DNA of 64,000 nucleotides from Aggregatilinea lenta (GTDB lineage: Bacteria; Chloroflexota; Anaerolineae; Aggregatilineales; Aggregatilineaceae), in assembly GCF_003569045.1 (NCBI RefSeq), contig NZ_BFCB01000003.1, positions 2,604,001 through 2,668,000 of the forward strand, given 5' to 3'. The notes beneath the pieces were generated by a model that was not told the origin of the DNA, did not search any database, and was given only the letters and a program-made list of their open reading frames with translations. The stretch's first letter is position 1. Each line of letters opens with the position of its first letter. This document shows, one piece after another, positions 8,198 to 31,357 of this stretch. A program made the position numbers and the translations under genes.

Positions 8198-8327
8198 GAA
8201 CGTAGCAATATCTACCAGTCCCCTCTCATCTTCCAGAAGATTCTGCCGGAATTGGCACCACTTTCGGATTCCGAATGGTTGCCGCGGTTTCAAAGGGCCG
8301 GTCCCTCCACCGCTCTGGATAAAAGGG
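8166..8327 (-). promoter_or_regulatory. SAM-I (S-box) riboswitch controlling metY-metX
   Basis: Read on the minus strand, the P1 arms CCCTTTTATC (8327-8318) and GATGAGAGGG (8230-8221) pair fully with G-U wobbles. Between them are the S-box hallmarks TTATCCAGAG, then GGTGGAGGGA, then CCCTTTGAAACC and GCGGCAACC, in the right order and spacing. The aptamer is 8221-8327 and the terminator downstream is 8166-8197. High SAM should stabilise P1 and allow termination, so metY and metX would be made when methionine/SAM is low. Confidence 0.92.
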
Positions 8328-19804: not shown

Positions 19805-21424
19805 CTAATCCTCACCAGCTGAAACGGGGCGATCTGCACGGCGAAACGCCAGCATGCCGGTGCCATAGAAGTCGGTCGGGATCACTGCGATCTGCTGGTA
19901 GTCGGCGGCGAACGCCGCATCTTGCTCAAGCCCATTGTGCAGGAACATCTCCATGAAGACGATATAGTCGGGCTGGTAGTCCTGGATCAACGCGGGCGGC
20001 ACGATGTAGTTGTCGTCGTCCTGGTACAGCGCCGGATCGAGCGGGTAGTAGGTGGTGACGGCGGGCGTTACCAACCCTATGGTATCCAGAATGCGCGCGT
20101 GCGTAAAGTAACCGATCGCGCCAATGTCTCCGGCGGCCAGCAGCGTATCCTCGCCGACACCGTAACGTTCGACCAGAAAGCCGGCCATCGCATGGTAGTA
20201 CAGCTCGATCTGGTGCCAGGCCATGACCGGCGCGGGGGTGGTCGGGCCGTGGTCAGGGTGCAGCGTCCAGGCGTTCAGCGAAAACGCGGTGAACAGCGCC
20301 ATCACGAGTGCGGTCGCTGCGCGCAGCACGTAAGGGTGGTGCAGTGTGGCGGTCACGGCCTGCGCGATTCCCCATACACCACACACGATAGCGAAAAAGT
20401 ACGCGGGCAGGATCGGCGCGAGATACCAGCGGAAGATGAGCGGGTTTGCCGCGCTGAAGGCGGTGATGTACAGCCAAGGATAGAGCAAATACGGCCAAAG
20501 GCGTGGCTGGCGCCTGGCGACGAACAGCAGCCCGGCAAGGGCCAGAGCCGGGTAGAGCACGATGCCGACCACGATGCCGGGCACGCCGAAGGTGTCGTTC
20601 TCGAAGAACGGCGTCGCGATATGCTGCAAGAAGCGGGTGAGGGCGGAGAGCTGTTCCACGTGGTAGGCGACTTCTTTAGCGCCAATCGACTGCGGCAGGA
20701 TGACGCCGAAGTAGGCCACGCTAAACGCGTACCAGGGAATCAAGAGGACGATGAAGATTGTCCACGTCCGCCAGGGGATCCAACTGCGCCAATCGCGCAG
20801 GGTGCCGTCGGCACAGGCGGCGCGCCAGTGGACAAAGAACTGGTGCGCGAACAGCGGCCCGATCCAGATCAGAGTATCCACGCGCGTCAGGACGCCGAGT
20901 GCCGCGAATACAGCCAGCGCGCGCTCGTGGCACCTGACGTAGGCAAAGGCCGCGGCAACACTCCAGAAGATGACGACGCTGGTTTCCATGCCGCCCACGG
21001 CGAAGGTGACGCTCATCGGACTGACCGCCCACAGCAGGCCGAGCGCGCCGCCCGGCACAAGACTGCCAGTGAGCGCGGTCATCAGCAAGACCAGGAGCAC
21101 AGCCGTCCCGGCGTCGGCGGCAGCGTTGATCGTCAGCGCGAACCAGGGGAAGTTTTCGCTGCCGGTGACGGCGCTGATCCCGGCCATGAGCAGCGTGTAC
21201 AGCGGCGTCGTGGTGCCGATGGTGCGCTCATCGAGGTTGTAGACGAAGCCGTCGCCTTCGACGAGGTTGCGTGCGTAGCGGAACGTGATGAACGCGTCGT
21301 CGATGGTGCGCGGCTGGGGGATGACGCGCAGTGTGATCGCCGCGAGGGCGACGACGAAACACACAAAGAAGACGCGTGTCATGCGAGGGTGATCGGGACC
21401 TGTGGCGGCTGGTGTTGATGCCAT
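19805..21424 (-). CDS. GT-C membrane glycosyltransferase (PMT/ArnT-like)
   Basis: 539 residues with about ten hydrophobic segments. TIDDAFITFRYARN near 40-53 carries the acidic pair in the first periplasmic loop that marks polyprenyl-phosphate-sugar-dependent GT-C enzymes. GGMETSVV near 149 and LTRVDTLIWIGP near 180 also fit that group. A soluble C-terminal part (about 420-539) follows. It would glycosylate lipid or protein on the outer face of the membrane; the acceptor is unknown. ATG 21424 is chosen over the TTG one codon upstream. Confidence 0.75.
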   Translation of the reverse strand: MASTPAATGPDHPRMTRVFFVCFVVALAAITLRVIPQPRTIDDAFITFRYARNLVEGDGFVYNLDERTIGTTTPLYTLLMAGISAVTGSENFPWFALTINAAADAGTAVLLVLLMTALTGSLVPGGALGLLWAVSPMSVTFAVGGMETSVVIFWSVAAAFAYVRCHERALAVFAALGVLTRVDTLIWIGPLFAHQFFVHWRAACADGTLRDWRSWIPWRTWTIFIVLLIPWYAFSVAYFGVILPQSIGAKEVAYHVEQLSALTRFLQHIATPFFENDTFGVPGIVVGIVLYPALALAGLLFVARRQPRLWPYLLYPWLYITAFSAANPLIFRWYLAPILPAYFFAIVCGVWGIAQAVTATLHHPYVLRAATALVMALFTAFSLNAWTLHPDHGPTTPAPVMAWHQIELYYHAMAGFLVERYGVGEDTLLAAGDIGAIGYFTHARILDTIGLVTPAVTTYYPLDPALYQDDDNYIVPPALIQDYQPDYIVFMEMFLHNGLEQDAAFAADYQQIAVIPTDFYGTGMLAFRRADRPVSAGED

Positions 21425-21559
21425 CAACGATGTGTCCGGGAACGGATGAAGACCTGATCACGAATGGTACTTGGACAGGCGGCACGGCGCAACACAAAAG
21501 GGCCGGAGGCGGTGGGAGAATAGTCCCTGTAGATCTGCCCATATGAGGGAAACCAAGCC

Positions 21560-21588
21560 TTGACAATCCTCCCTGCTGCGACTAGAAT
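21560..21588 (+). promoter_or_regulatory. Consensus promoter of the leucine T-box/tRNA-Ala/leuS leader
   Basis: TTGACA at 21560-21565, exact 17-nt spacer, TAGAAT at 21583-21588. It is the only strong promoter upstream of the tRNA gene, so tRNA-Ala is probably transcribed from it. Confidence 0.85.
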
Positions 21589-21807
21589 GTACGTGCTTAA
21601 CAATTGAGATGCTTGTGCAAAAAAAGCGCTGAACGGAAGTAGTAGGCCATCGTCGCAGTGAGCCGGGACCAGTGCAAACCCGGTGCGGCGTTCGCGACGA
21701 GCGCCCAGGCCGAACTCGTCCGCTAGCTGTGCGGCTGAACCTTAGTAAGCCGTGCCGGTAACGACCGTTATCCGTTATGAGTGGGTGGCACACCACGCAA
21801 CACCTCT

Positions 21808-21880
21808 GGGCCCGTAGCTCAATTGGGAGAGCGCCACAATGGCATTGTGGAGGTCAAGGGTTCGAACCCCTTCGGGTCCA
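21808..21880 (+). tRNA. tRNA-Ala (anticodon GGC)
   Basis: A full 73-nt cloverleaf: acceptor GGGCCCG/CGGGTCC with discriminator A, D-stem GCTC/GAGC, anticodon stem CCACA/TGTGG with loop ATGGCAT (anticodon GGC), T-arm AAGGG-TTCGAAC-CCCTT. The third acceptor pair is G3-U70, the alanine identity element. The 3' CCA is not encoded. It lies inside the leucine T-box leader, between the stem III region and the antiterminator. Confidence 0.96.
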
Positions 21881-21921
21881 CACGTTTTCTAACCGCCACC
21901 AACCAGGGTGGTACCACGGAG

Positions 21922-21975
21922 TCCTCTTCGCCCCTGATCGTCAGGGATTACTACGAAGAGGATTTTTATTATTTT
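21922..21975 (+). terminator. T-box terminator before the leuS unit
   Basis: TCCTCTTCG (21922-21930) pairs with CGAAGAGGA (21954-21962); the inner CCCTGA-TCG-TCAGGG stacks on it. TTTTTATTATTTT follows (21963-21975). The CCCT can alternatively pair with AGGG of the T-box, giving the antiterminator. Confidence 0.85.
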
Positions 21976-22072
21976 CTGACAGTATTGTAGTCGTTTTGGC
22001 GTTAGTCTCTTTATTATATAAAGCACGTGCACTTTTCCCGTACTGTAATGCGAGGCGCGAAAGGGATCACTG

Positions 22073-22207
22073 ATGACCAAAAAGAAGCAGCCGACGCTTG
22101 CGGAACGTCTTCAGGAACTGCTTGAGTCGCTGAAGGGCGCGCTTACGCCGCGCCAACTTGCTCCTGTGCCGATCCCGGCGCGCGAAGATCCCTACCGCCG
22201 CCGCTGA
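22073..22207 (+). CDS. Small basic protein, 44 aa, between T-box and leuS
   Basis: ATG 22073 has AAAGGGA about 7 nt upstream and the ORF ends in TGA at 22205-22207. The protein starts MTKKKQ, has an amphipathic helix (LAERLQELLESLKGAL, residues 9-24) and ends in a Pro/Arg tail ending YRRR. Its good ribosome site and neighbour-like codon use argue for translation. I do not recognise a family. It is downstream of the T-box terminator, so it should be induced with leuS on leucine shortage, unless a promoter lies in the AT-rich stretch 21976-22030. Confidence 0.6.
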   Translation: MTKKKQPTLAERLQELLESLKGALTPRQLAPVPIPAREDPYRRR

Positions 22208-22228
22208 GTAGACGTTTCACCAAGTAGG

Positions 22229-22375
22229 CGGTGCGAGCCGCACCGTCTCCAGGCACAGGCAGGGCATGTTGGCGCTGATCAGCCGAATCCTTGCCGTGAT
22301 GTGCCTGTGCCCCATGTCTGATTTCCCTCGGCCCAGCATCCCGGTAAGAGCCATTCTGGACGGGAGCCTGGGCCG
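22229..22375 (+). other. Run of strong hairpins in the leuS leader
   Basis: The 373-nt stretch between the 44-aa ORF and leuS holds three hairpins in a row. CGGTGCG-AGC-CGCACCG is at 22229-22245. GGCACAGGCA (22252-22261) pairs with TGCCTGTGCC (22302-22311) around the palindrome GCTGATCAGC (22274-22283). CGGCCCAG (22329-22336) pairs with CTGGGCCG (22368-22375) with an inner CCCG/CGGG pair. None has a U-tract. This may be a structured regulatory or processing RNA. Confidence 0.5.
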
Positions 22376-22417
22376 TTGTGTTGTCCCCGGATAAAACCGG
22401 AGGAGGCGCTGTGCACG

Positions 22418-22522
22418 ATGAAAACGAGCCTGTACAATTATGAGCCGCAGTGCTGCTGCCTTCTCGCGGACCGCCGGAGCCACCGCGTTACCGGCTGTGT
22501 CAATCGGCTGTGTGATGGCTGA
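22418..22522 (+). CDS. Possible 34-aa upstream ORF of leuS with a Cys-Cys-Cys run
   Basis: ATG 22418, with GGAGGAGG 11 nt upstream, opens 34 codons ending 58 nt before leuS. Three consecutive Cys codons (residues 12-14) are followed by two Leu codons, and there are five Cys in all. An alternative GTG at 22411 in another frame sits closer to the ribosome site and encodes only ten residues. It could be a leader peptide or a chance ORF. Confidence 0.3.
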   Translation: MKTSLYNYEPQCCCLLADRRSHRVTGCVNRLCDG

Positions 22523-22580
22523 CGTTTCCTGGTGTGTTCGCTTTGATTAGACCTTAACGGACTGGAGCACGAAAACAAGC

Positions 22581-25376
22581 ATGGCAGACAAGTATACGCC
22601 GCAAGAAATCGAACCCCGCTGGTCAGGGCGATGGGAGCGCGAAGGCAAGAACCGTTCGGTGGCCGATCCGAGCCGCGAGAAGTTCTACGCGCTGACGATG
22701 CTGCCGTATCCCAGTGGCGACCTGCACATCGGCCACTGGTACGCCATGACGCCGTCGGATGCGCGCGCGCGGTGGCTGCGGATGCGCGGCTATAACGTGC
22801 TGTTCCCGATGGGCTTCGACGCGTTTGGCCTGCCTGCCGAAAACGCGGCGATCCAGCGCGGCATCCACCCAAAGATCTGGACGTATCGCAACATCAACAA
22901 CATGCGCCGCCAATTGCGCACGATGGGCGCGATGTTCGACTGGGAGCGCGAGGCCGTTTCCAGCGATCCTGAATACTATAAGTGGACGCAGTGGTTTTTC
23001 CTGCAGTTCTACAAGTACGGGCTGGCCTACCGTCAGCGCGCGGCGGTGGACTTCTGCCCGCACTGCAACACGACGCTGGCGCGCGAGCAGGTTTGGGGCG
23101 ATGACCGCCACTGTGAGCGCTGTGGCACGCCCGTCATCAAGAAGAACCTGGAGCAGTGGTTCTTCCGCATCACGAAGTACGCCGACGAGCTGATCGAGGA
23201 CCTGGACTGGATCAAGTGGCCGGAGCGCGTCAAGCTGATGCAGAACAACTGGATCGGGCGCAGCGAAGGCGCGCACGTCACGTTCCACACGGAGCAGGGC
23301 GATCCGATCACGGTGTTCACCACGCGGCCTGACACGCTGTGGGGCGCGACGTTCATGGTGCTGGCTCCCGAGCATTCGCTGGTGGATAAGATCACCACGC
23401 CAGAGCAGCGCGCCGCGGTGGACGCCTACATCGACGAAGCGTCGCGCAAGACCGAGATCGACCGCACCGCCGAGGGCAAGGAGAAGACGGGCGTCTTCAC
23501 GGGCGGCTACGCGATCAACCCGGTCAACGGCGAACGCATCCCGATCTGGATCGCGGACTACGTGCTGATCAGCTACGGCAGCGGCGCGATCATGGCTGTG
23601 CCCGCGCACGACCAGCGCGACTTCGAGTTCGCGCGTAAGTACGACCTGCCGGTGCGTATCGTCATCCAGCCGGACGGCGAAACGGACCTGGACCCGGCCA
23701 AGATGACGGAGGCGTGGCCCGGCGAAGGCGTGATGGTCAACAGCGCCGAGTTCGACGGCACGCCCGCGCACAAATCCGGCGACGGCAAAAAGAACGAGGC
23801 CGTGGGCGTCGTCACGAAGTGGCTGGAAGCGCGTGAGATGGGTCACGGCGCGGTGAACTTCCGGCTGCGCGACTGGCTGATCAGCCGTCAGCGCTACTGG
23901 GGCGCGCCGATCCCGATGGTCTACTGCCCGAACTGCGGCGTCGTGCCGGTTCCTGAAGCGGATCTGCCCGTGCTGCTGCCCGACGACGTGGACTTCCGCC
24001 CGACCGGAGAAAGTCCGCTGCGCTACCACGAGGGCTTCCTGAACACGACCTGCCCGGCGTGCGGCGGCCCCGCGACGCGCGAGACGGACACGATGGACAC
24101 ATTCATGTGCTCGTCGTGGTACCCGTACCGCTACCTGTCGCCACACTACGACGGCGGCCCGTTCGACCCCGAAGAGGGCGCGTACTGGCTGCCGGTGGAC
24201 CAGTACACGGGCGGCATCGAGCACGCGACGATGCACCTGATGTACACGCGTTTCTTCACTAAGGCCATGCGCGACTGCGACATCTTCGAGCAGACGGAAG
24301 CCGTGGCGAAGGCGATGGGGCGCGACACGGAAGGCATGTACGACGAGCCGATGCTGGGCCTGTTCAACCAGGGGATGATCCTGGGCGAGCCGCGCAGCGG
24401 TGATGTGATCGTGGCCGAGGGCACGTTCCAGGGCGGCAAGCTGAATGCTGCCAGCGTGCGCGTGCTGCCGAATATCGAGGATGCGCCCCCCGCCAACGGC
24501 ACCGACCGCGTGGTGGGTGAGGTGGTGTCGCGCAAGGAACTGATCCTGAACGTGATGACGCCGGAAGGCGCGTCCGTGGTGGTCGATACGGACGAAAACA
24601 CCACGTTCGAGGTTCCCGGCGTGGGTCCTAACGCCGCCGTGGAGAGCATCCGCTATCACCTGGACGTCGAGAAGATGTCCAAGTCGAAGGGTAACGTCAT
24701 CGCGCCGGACCAACTGGTGCAGGAGCACGGCGCGGACACGGTGCGCGCGTACCTGATGTTCGCCTTCGAGTGGGAAAAGGGCGGCCCGTGGAACAGCCAG
24801 GGCATCCAGGGCCCCAAACGCTGGCTGAACGATGTGTGGGATCTGGCGCTGGACGGCGCGCCGCAGGGCATGCCTGACGAGAAGGCCGACCGCGACCTGC
24901 GCCGGAAGGTGCACCAGGCGATCCAGAAAGTCGATTACGGCTTGGAGACGTTTGGGTTCAACACAGCGATCTCGGCGCTGATGGCGCTGCGCAACGACCT
25001 GCAAGCGGCGTACCGCGCGGCGAACGTCAGCGCGGACGCCTGGAACGAAGCGATCGAAACGCTGTTGCTGCTGATGGCCCCGTTCACGCCGTTCATCACG
25101 GAAGAACTGTGGACGAAGACCGGGCACGAGTACAGCATTCACGATCAGGCGTGGCCCGTCTACGACGAGGAAATCGCCGCCGAGGACGAGATCACGCTGG
25201 TGGTGCAGGTCAACGGCAAGGTCCGCGACCGCATCACCGTTCCGGCGGACGTGAGCGAGGAAGATGCCAAGCGGCTGGCGCTGGAAACCGACGGCGCGCA
25301 GCGGCACATGGACGGCAAGCCGCCGCGCAAGGTGATCTACGTCGCGCAGCGCGGCATGGTGAACATCGTCGTGTAG
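22581..25376 (+). CDS. leuS: Leucyl-tRNA synthetase
   Basis: Charges tRNA-Leu. It is a class I synthetase of 931 residues. The HIGH motif is in YPSGDLHIGHW near 43-53 and KMSKSKGN near 697. Paired CPHC/CERCG (near 155-176) and CPNCG/CPACGG (near 451-495) look like zinc-knuckle positions. The CP1 editing domain lies between about 230 and 420. Between residues 588 and 690 an extra domain precedes KMSKS, as in many bacterial LeuRS. Control by the leucine T-box at 21595-21975 is consistent with the specifier codon. A terminator closes the unit at 25416-25461. Confidence 0.96.
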   Translation: MADKYTPQEIEPRWSGRWEREGKNRSVADPSREKFYALTMLPYPSGDLHIGHWYAMTPSDARARWLRMRGYNVLFPMGFDAFGLPAENAAIQRGIHPKIWTYRNINNMRRQLRTMGAMFDWEREAVSSDPEYYKWTQWFFLQFYKYGLAYRQRAAVDFCPHCNTTLAREQVWGDDRHCERCGTPVIKKNLEQWFFRITKYADELIEDLDWIKWPERVKLMQNNWIGRSEGAHVTFHTEQGDPITVFTTRPDTLWGATFMVLAPEHSLVDKITTPEQRAAVDAYIDEASRKTEIDRTAEGKEKTGVFTGGYAINPVNGERIPIWIADYVLISYGSGAIMAVPAHDQRDFEFARKYDLPVRIVIQPDGETDLDPAKMTEAWPGEGVMVNSAEFDGTPAHKSGDGKKNEAVGVVTKWLEAREMGHGAVNFRLRDWLISRQRYWGAPIPMVYCPNCGVVPVPEADLPVLLPDDVDFRPTGESPLRYHEGFLNTTCPACGGPATRETDTMDTFMCSSWYPYRYLSPHYDGGPFDPEEGAYWLPVDQYTGGIEHATMHLMYTRFFTKAMRDCDIFEQTEAVAKAMGRDTEGMYDEPMLGLFNQGMILGEPRSGDVIVAEGTFQGGKLNAASVRVLPNIEDAPPANGTDRVVGEVVSRKELILNVMTPEGASVVVDTDENTTFEVPGVGPNAAVESIRYHLDVEKMSKSKGNVIAPDQLVQEHGADTVRAYLMFAFEWEKGGPWNSQGIQGPKRWLNDVWDLALDGAPQGMPDEKADRDLRRKVHQAIQKVDYGLETFGFNTAISALMALRNDLQAAYRAANVSADAWNEAIETLLLLMAPFTPFITEELWTKTGHEYSIHDQAWPVYDEEIAAEDEITLVVQVNGKVRDRITVPADVSEEDAKRLALETDGAQRHMDGKPPRKVIYVAQRGMVNIVV

Positions 25377-28494: not shown

Positions 28495-28872
28495 GAGACT
28501 CAAGTCGATCTATAAGCCGCATTCTGTACCCGCCGCGCGTGCGACGAGTGGCGATCATCTATCTGGGACGCCGGTTGCCCGGCGACTCAAGCGACCTACC
28601 CGGAACTGGTAGCGGGGCGGGCAGCCCCTCATTCCTGCTTGGTCTTGCTCCCGGTGGGGTTTGCCTGGCCGCTCATGTCACCACGAGCGCCGGTGCGCTC
28701 TTACCGCACCGTTTCACCCTCGCCCTGCACGTGGCAGGGCAATACACTTCTCTGTTGCACTATGCCGTCGGGTCGCCCCGCCTGGCCGTTAGCCAGCACC
28801 GTGCCCTATGGAGTACGGACTTTCCTCAGCCTGCACATGGCAAACCGCGATCACCCAATCGACTTGAGCCTC
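28495..28872 (-). ncRNA. rnpB: RNase P RNA, bacterial type A
   Basis: The P1 arms GAGGCTCAAGTCGAT (28872-28858) and ATCGACTTGAGTCTC (28509-28495) pair along 15 bp. Conserved blocks on the minus strand are GAGGAAAGTCC near the 5' end (CR I), GGTAAGAGCGCACC in the middle, and ACAGAATGCGGCTTATAGATC-type sequence at the 3' end (CR V). The size of about 378 nt is usual. It is the catalytic RNA that cuts tRNA 5' leaders, including the tRNA-Ala in this window. Confidence 0.95.
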
Positions 28873-31084: not shown

Positions 31085-31357
31085 CCAACAAAAAATCCCC
31101 GCGCCTGGCTCAAAAGCCAGGACGAGGGGACTCGTGGTGCCACCTGGATTTGCCTGCACCTCACGGTGCGGACCTCGGGGAGTCACTGGGACTCACTCGC
31201 GCTAACGGGCGGACCCGGCCTGCCTCAGCACACCTCGCGGTGGGGTTGGCGGGCAGCATATCGGGAGTGGATGCTGGCCTGAGGGCACTGTCGCCTTGCA
31301 CCGTCCGGCGACTCGCTGGAAGGTACCCGACAGGGGCGGCTCCGTCAAAGCTGATAG
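31085..31357 (-). promoter_or_regulatory. Serine T-box riboswitch controlling the sORF-serS-mug unit
   Basis: On the minus strand stem I shows CAGCGAGTCGCCGG and GGTGCAAGGCGACAG, then the specifier context AGC-ATCC (AGC at 31275-31273), a serine codon. The T-box GGTGGCACCACGA is at 31144-31132. Its UGGC matches a tRNA ending with G73, as in tRNA-Ser. Specifier and discriminator thus agree. The terminator is at 31090-31130. Confidence 0.9.
31090..31130 (-). terminator. T-box terminator before the sORF-serS unit
   Basis: On the minus strand TCCCC...CCTGGCT pairs with AGCCAGG...GGGGA (31130-31096, 4-nt loop), with a six-U run at 31095-31090. Confidence 0.85.

Follow-up and report, generated by a model that had tools for sequence, protein, structure and literature searches.

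How a complete tRNA gene comes to lie inside a riboswitch that itself reads a tRNA is the question raised by the leader of the leucyl-tRNA synthetase gene in the window analyzed here, which is a stretch of 64,000 nucleotides of the Aggregatilinea lenta genome (contig NZ_BFCB01000003.1, positions 2,604,001 to 2,668,000). An earlier note made from the letters of this window had described the leader as a leucine T-box with a tRNA-Ala gene inserted in an otherwise normal riboswitch, bounded by one promoter and one terminator. Our analysis bears out this anatomy and places the insert between the two arms of stem III, with leuS downstream. The features of the locus are as follows.

21560..21588, + strand: sigma-70-like promoter TTGACA-17-TAGAAT, 11 of 12 consensus bases
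21620..21938, + strand: T-box leader (Rfam model RF00230, model positions 1-219) with a tRNA in stem III
21715..21717, + strand: specifier codon CTC (Leu, read by tRNA-Leu GAG), read directly
21779..21783, + strand: GAGTG, which fits the 5' purine motif RRRxG of the T-box discriminator, read directly
21784..21789, + strand: stem III 5' arm GGTGGC, from the RF00230 alignment
21808..21880, + strand: tRNA-Ala(GGC) with G3-U70, CCA not encoded, from Rfam
21895..21900, + strand: stem III 3' arm GCCACC, from the RF00230 alignment
21901..21902, + strand: AA after stem III (discriminator motif), AA here in 90 of 96 leaders
21905..21919, + strand: T-box sequence AGGGTGGTACCACGG, read directly and from the RF00230 alignment
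21922..21975, + strand: intrinsic terminator with an inner hairpin and a T-rich tail, read directly
22073..22207, + strand: small ORF of 44 aa between the leader and leuS
22581..25376, + strand: leuS, leucyl-tRNA synthetase, 931 aa

Anatomy of the Locus

The family covariance model RF00230 matched the leader at 21620-21938 with 76.4 bits (E 6.6e-17 in a search of 461 bases, 2.1e-16 in a genome-wide search), and the alignment covers the model from its first to its last position (1-219), so that the match runs across the tRNA instead of ending before 21808 and includes the downstream half of the T-box up to 21938. The score lies below the gathering score of the family, which is 93, and the leader was not listed as a T-box by the whole-window Rfam scan at that threshold; searches at the usual cut-off can thus miss such leaders, as happened in this window. 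The longest insert in the alignment comprises 105 nt between the stem III arms, as compared to 7 model positions, and a second, smaller expansion is found in stem I (44 nt versus 23 model positions). Most of the 105 nt is taken up by the tRNA-Ala(GGC), which sits in the loop of the 6-pair stem III with a spacer of 18 nt on its 5' side and 14 nt on its 3' side. The tRNA gene, which has a cloverleaf, an alanine anticodon and G3-U70, scored 65.0 bits with the Rfam model and was delimited by ARAGORN at 21808-21881. The distance from the specifier to the T-box sequence is 187 nt in the window and 114 nt when the tRNA is subtracted, and its median is 106 over 85 leaders without tRNA.

The remaining parts of the leader fit a leucine T-box. 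The specifier CTC agrees with the downstream gene leuS, and the T-box bulge UGGU, read directly, matches a discriminator base that we take to be A in tRNA-Leu. The terminator, whose stem TCCTCTTCG/CGAAGAGGA was read directly at 21922-21930 and 21954-21962 and is followed by TTTTTATTATTTT, is absent from the listing of our terminator scan, which accepts loops of 3-8 only; together with the antiterminator from the RF00230 alignment it forms a pair of structures whose competition is predicted. A discriminator domain of the order RRRxG-stem III-AA is also present, the RRRxG motif being described in the excerpted text of PMC7583486. In the interval 21400-22650 the scan for consensus promoters found a single promoter-like site, the one at 21560-21588, in agreement with the earlier note, and found none directly before the nested tRNA, where a separate promoter had been named as an argument against nesting.

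Within the A. lenta genome the nested tRNA is found in the leuS T-box of the window and in none of the other seven of the eight T-boxes listed. The genome has 44 tRNAs, among which tRNA-Ala(GGC) occurs once, while the tRNA-Leu types TAA, TAG, CAA, CAG and GAG are all present. As a side observation, neither tRNA-Ala(UGC) nor tRNA-Ile(GAU) is among the 44 tRNAs listed, and our guess is that the assembly may lack an rRNA operon. Upstream of another T-box of the genome, on the same strand, a tRNA-Thr(CGT) was seen at a distance of about 0.8 kb (L001). The 44-aa ORF between leader and leuS matched 30 frames in the fetched loci with phmmer at E values up to 0.01, three of which are the window's own and several of which are repeats, and matches also occur at loci where a T-box was not found (L290, L294, L296 and L316). 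Four further features lie around the locus.

8223-8325, - strand: SAM riboswitch, 93.6 bits
25554-26846, + strand: protein with DUF3644 and a weak EC042_2821-like restriction endonuclease domain
28497-28866, - strand: RNase P RNA (class A), about 3 kb downstream of leuS
31115-31357, - strand (G000:C3:2635115-2635357): weak second T-box, 39.8 bits, probably the one called serS in the earlier note

Recurrence among Bacteria

The locus had been presented as a single oddity, a view that does not hold, since the same order was found in many genomes. With a search pattern made up of a generic tRNA T-arm and, at most about 40 nt further on, the T-box sequence, matches were obtained in 26 of 154 genomes of the order, 30 of 396 of the class and 17 of 400 of the phylum, as well as in at least 120 stretches of a global collection; the order, class and phylum sets overlap, and the counts of this exact pattern are lower bounds. 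Under a stricter pattern ARAGORN found a tRNA at 133 of 163 places in the order, class and global loci, among the matches listed; the global scan contributed 91 of the 133, the class 26 and the order 16. The other 30 places lack an ARAGORN tRNA, two of them (L134 and L228) showing the 3' part of a tRNA-Ala clipped at the locus edge, and 11 loci of the order scan (L102, L106-L115) lie outside this count because of the stricter pattern.

All 133 nested tRNAs are tRNA-Ala (131 GGC and 2 CGC) and none belongs to another amino acid, among the matches listed. Since 37 of the 44 A. lenta tRNAs, in 18 amino-acid groups, satisfy the tRNA half of the pattern, this alanine-only result is not built into the pattern. 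Some of the 133 places are repeats, for example L103 and L215, and the two with a nested tRNA-Ala(CGC), L195 and L253, are probably one place fetched twice. After removal of repeats and addition of 9 tRNAs from later loci, 126 distinct nested tRNAs were listed (125 GGC and 1 CGC); among these G3-U70 is retained in 126 of 126, and CCA is encoded in 74. On the same strand downstream of the nested layout, leuS was seen in 115 of the 133 loci, among the matches listed, and of the 18 loci where it was not seen 8 have less than 420 nt of sequence remaining.

Where it was run on nested loci, the T-box model confirmed the finds made by pattern. A T-box match containing the tRNA was obtained in all nine pattern-found loci of other lineages (one clipped at the locus edge), in all six further nested loci (L082, L084, L094, L098, L101 and L104), in 12 of 19 loci with a whole tRNA-Ala that had been fetched for leuS alone, the 7 without a match being counted as T-box-less, and in three of three additional leuS-fetched loci with a whole tRNA-Ala. 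Among the matches listed, 96 non-redundant leaders were compared: the specifier CTC, as GAACTC, is present in 80 (with a pattern able to find CTN only), AA precedes the T-box in 90, and 93 have RRRxG at most 45 nt from the tRNA, by a loose test. In two nested leaders (L256 and L258) AGGGTGGCACC was seen in place of AGGGTGGTACC, so that a different base faces the discriminator.

The nested layout spans Chloroflexota, Thermomicrobia, several Bacillota and others. Global matches listed include Syntrophomonas, Desulfofundulus, Symbiobacterium, Thermaerobacter, Sphaerobacter, Dictyobacter, Tengunoibacter, Coprothermobacterota and Caldisericota, many of them being metagenome bins whose labels may be wrong. 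Such recurrence makes a chance adjacency very unlikely. In a quick tree of the 91 LeuRS proteins encoded behind nested leaders, one side consists mostly of Chloroflexota and Thermomicrobia (41 rows, SH-aLRT 89) and the other mostly of Bacillota (44 rows, SH-aLRT 99), while two small groups and one Ktedonobacter bin fall outside both. This split is compatible with a layout that arose long ago and was then inherited mostly vertically or transferred once at an early stage, in a tree that comprises nested-leader proteins only and hence cannot date the gain of the tRNA.

A second alanine tRNA accompanies some of these leaders. In 28 of the 116 assessable nested loci (e.g. L240, L223, L237 and L193) a tRNA-Ala(CGC) lies upstream of the T-box on the same strand, mostly near stem I and in some loci at an upstream distance of only 16-40 nt from the AGTA motif of stem I. 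The order there is tRNA-Ala(CGC), T-box 5' half, tRNA-Ala(GGC), T-box 3' half and leuS, so that two alanine tRNAs frame the leucine sensor, with scant room for a promoter between the CGC tRNA and stem I in the close cases; in ktedonobacterial loci such as L117 and L193 promoter-like sequence was seen by eye between the CGC tRNA and the T-box.

Stem III Pairing and RNA Folding

If the tRNA is truly enclosed by stem III, the sequences flanking it should pair in register. In a strict set of 69 leaders the two arms formed on average 5.29 of 6 pairs in register and 1.33-3.16 at offsets of 1 to 4, and when partners were swapped among leaders the mean was 4.02 and the maximum 4.36 in 5000 tries. The anchors of this test were chosen after viewing the leaders, and kinship among leaders remains in part under partner swaps and is retained in the offset comparison. 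An earlier anchored version with 91 leaders gave 4.46 of 6 pairs, with a swap mean of 3.36 and a swap maximum of 3.67 in 2000 tries; 5 of the 96 leaders had lacked an anchor, and a further 22 were excluded for a looser anchor or too-short flanks to arrive at the 69. Weaker than the register test was a swap test of the duplex energy of the two flanks (native mean -10.8 versus -8.6, with 15 of 96 leaders under 5%), because a flank of 45 nt finds many other partners.

Folding of single sequences did not reproduce this arrangement. The leader with and without the tRNA had a z of -0.02, a result in which a tRNA domain is not apparent, and in the predicted ensemble of the window leader the acceptor pairs of the tRNA reached a probability of about 0.11 and the pairs of stem III a probability of 0. 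The distance between stem III and the tRNA was assessed in the 53 leaders with at least five unbroken anchored stem III pairs. In 7 of these, stem III comes to within 5 nt (5' side) and 6 nt (3' side) of the tRNA, while the spacers are longer in the other 46 and in the window. A close lock of stem III on the tRNA was accordingly rejected as a general feature.

Promoters and Natural Controls among Relatives

Among the matches listed, a promoter-like site was found 150-420 nt before the tRNA in 104 of 116 nested loci (background 11% for windows of equal length) and within 70 nt before it in 11 of 116 (background 2.6%), the 116 being the nested loci with enough sequence and the promoters being consensus matches only. 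Most nested tRNAs therefore seem to be served by a promoter that precedes the T-box.

Relatives in which the T-box or the tRNA occurs alone provide natural controls for this arrangement. In a set of 61 genomes of the order (A. lenta and 60 relatives) the nested layout was found in 31, including all 15 assessable genomes of the window's family, in two of which (G014 and G028) leuS was not seen behind it. Five genomes, all of family f3 (G026, G037, G042, G051 and G059), have a leuS T-box without a tRNA; the T-box matches are 228-263 nt long in four of them and clipped at the locus end in G051, as compared to 291-349 nt for the matches with a tRNA in the leuS-fetched and further nested loci. Another eight (G021, G025, G031, G033, G038, G046, G050 and G052) carry a tRNA-Ala(GGC) upstream of leuS on the same strand, 0.3 to 8 kb away, with no T-box match; in G031 two contig ends each hold part of the gene and have its sequence in common. 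Neither a T-box nor a tRNA was found in the 1.2-1.4 kb read in eight genomes (G018, G019, G029, G034, G041, G048, G054 and G058), and the remaining nine (G005, G012, G016, G032, G036, G039, G047, G055 and G056) were not judged.

Where the tRNA is linked to leuS without a T-box, a promoter-like site lies within 70 nt before it in all seven genomes examined, and where it is unlinked such a site is present in 6 of 8. A hairpin and a T run close behind the T-box-less linked tRNA were found in 3 of 7 cases (L290, L294 and L295), and in L287 by eye; they were not found behind the tRNA in L286, L288 and L289. T-box and tRNA can thus occur separately, and a tRNA without the T-box seems to have its own promoter.

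Proposed Mechanism and Alternatives

The anatomy of the locus, its recurrence, the in-register pairing of stem III and the promoter-like sites upstream of the T-box are observations on sequences, and on them we base the reading that we consider probable, namely a conserved composite unit in which a single promoter supplies the tRNA under either outcome and expression of leuS is decided afterwards by the T-box. The order of such a unit would be promoter, T-box 5' half (stems I, II and IIA/B), stem III with tRNA-Ala(GGC), antiterminator/terminator and leuS. RNA polymerase would make stem I and the tRNA before the terminator, and all transcripts reaching that point would carry the tRNA. Uncharged tRNA-Leu(GAG) would then pair with CUC and UGGU and stabilize the antiterminator, so that leuS is read, while charged tRNA-Leu would lead to termination. 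From either product RNase P and RNase Z (or exonucleases where CCA is encoded) would free the tRNA, and the terminated RNA, the usual waste of attenuation, would become a tRNA precursor. A single RNA thus seems to combine the roles of tRNA precursor and gene switch, and a promoter of tRNA strength could precede a synthetase gene whose expression stays low as long as leucine is not scarce.

This order of events leads us to depart from the earlier note on one point. There the output of the tRNA was thought to be tied to leucine sensing; since the tRNA is transcribed before the terminator decision, leucine should not control it, and we rejected leucine regulation of the tRNA on gene order, the promoter alone appearing to be shared. 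The tRNA may fold as a separate domain, and cutting by RNase P/Z might separate the sensor from the antiterminator, as the note had also suggested. In the excerpted text of PMC4608709, RNase Y cleaves three S. aureus T-boxes (leuS, valS and serS) in the stretch from stem I to the T-box sequence, which suggests that a cut between the domains is compatible with a working T-box and need not destroy it. Several points count against the composite unit: the 11 nested tRNAs with a nearby promoter-like site exceed the background (11 of 116 versus 2.6%, among the matches listed), the folding predicted from single sequences contains neither a tRNA domain nor stem III, and 7 of 32 nested genomes have a second place resembling a tRNA-Ala(GGC) gene.

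The layout could instead be a frozen accident, in which the stem III loop of an early leuS T-box received a tRNA-Ala in a single event and kept it with no selected advantage, the insert being tolerated by the T-box and often representing the sole copy of a needed tRNA. This reading is possible, and we hold it to be rather doubtful. It would account for the restriction to tRNA-Ala with leuS downstream in 115 of 133 loci (among the matches listed), as expected from one event, and for the separate occurrence of the parts, with the T-box alone in 5, the leuS-linked tRNA alone in 8 and neither in 8 of the 61 genomes. It also agrees with the copy number of the tRNA in 32 nested genomes, where a loose tRNA-Ala(GGC) pattern found a single place in 20 genomes and two places in 7, a contig end being involved in one of these pairs; the 5 genomes with no place are those whose nested gene is CGC or escaped the pattern. 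However, the nested layout has been kept on both sides of the deep LeuRS split, and the nested tRNA has been kept in the seven genomes with a second tRNA-Ala(GGC)-like place. Another possibility, that maturation of the tRNA is itself part of the switch, is unlikely in our estimation. Stem III would here prolong the acceptor stem and delay RNase P until the terminator decision has been made, and the later cut would release the bound tRNA-Leu, reset the leader and set the 5' end of the leuS mRNA. According to the abstract of PMC9433436, pairing of the 5' leader with the 3' RCCA extends the acceptor stem and inhibits RNase P, and the S. aureus cuts between stem I and T-box (PMC4608709, excerpted text) would be a parallel; by this analogy, hindrance of RNase P by stem III in the 7 of 53 leaders in which it abuts the tRNA (5 nt 5', 6 nt 3') is a speculation. 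The spacers are longer in the other 46 leaders and in the window (18 and 14 nt), and because the recount of spacers gave 7 of 53 we lowered somewhat the already small probability assigned to this reading. Quite unlikely is its farthest-reaching form, an ancient RNA that is riboswitch and tRNA precursor at once, with tRNA maturation as a regulatory step, and that predates the split of the Chloroflexota and Bacillota leuS lineages; stem III, where abutting, would hold off RNase P while the discriminator folds, and excision of the tRNA after the decision would sever the sensor, free tRNA-Leu and set the mRNA 5' end.

Two further explanations are highly improbable. A tRNA gene with its own promoter next to an unrelated T-box would be in line with the 11 of 116 nested tRNAs (among the matches listed) that have a promoter-like site within 70 nt, yet the T-box model matches span the tRNA, the stem III arms that flank it pair in register and the layout recurs across phyla; on these grounds, and on the position of the promoters, chance adjacency and separate units were rejected. 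An insert that serves merely as a tRNA-like structural domain of the riboswitch and is never released as a working tRNA would agree with its location inside the T-box match wherever the model matched a nested locus. Against such a domain stand the G3-U70 pair in 126 of 126 and the encoded CCA in 74 of 126 nested tRNAs (among the matches listed), its being the sole tRNA-Ala(GGC) among the 44 tRNAs of the A. lenta genome, and the standalone tRNA-Ala(GGC) with a promoter-like site in relatives.

If the composite unit is the correct reading, deep bacterial lineages would have tRNA supply and synthetase control joined on one transcript, and what attenuation discards would turn into a tRNA precursor; the layout itself shows stem III to be capable of holding a domain of 73 nt. 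The tRNA would be made inside a helix belonging to the very part of the riboswitch that tests the 3' end of a tRNA, which raises the question of the order of RNase P/Z cutting and the riboswitch decision.

Comparison with Known Systems

The nested leader is a widespread variant of the leucine T-box that is unreported as far as we searched. In the open-licence literature searched, no mention of a tRNA inside a T-box was found, an earlier report being possible, and the excerpted texts of PMC7583486, PMC7778990, PMC2494555, PMC3766115 and PMC4608709 contain no nested tRNA. With the leuS T-box of the transcriptional type (RF00230) the leader shares stem I with CUC, stem II, stem IIA/B, stem III within the RRRxG...AA motif, the UGGU bulge, the antiterminator/terminator and the downstream leuS, and it differs in that a complete tRNA-Ala gene occupies the stem III loop. 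The tyrU-tufB operon of E. coli is a tRNA-mRNA operon in which the tRNAs precede the mRNA behind a shared promoter and are freed by processing. The unit proposed here resembles it in that a tRNA precursor and an mRNA stand on one promoter and the tRNA would be freed by processing, whereas in the nested leader a regulatory RNA is broken up by the tRNA, which stands between the two parts that bind tRNA.

Translational T-boxes with insertions in stem III or helix A2 (PMC7583486) likewise tolerate extra sequence in the discriminator domain, but in the excerpted text these are additional insertions, and no gene for another tRNA is mentioned. The S. aureus leuS, valS and serS leaders, as far as the excerpted text of PMC4608709 describes them, share the endonucleolytic cut between stem I and the T-box, which there is made by RNase Y, while here the RNase P/Z sites of the tRNA would supply the cuts. 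T-boxes are known to read tRNAs, and in the leader described here one also appears to make a tRNA, and one of a different amino acid.
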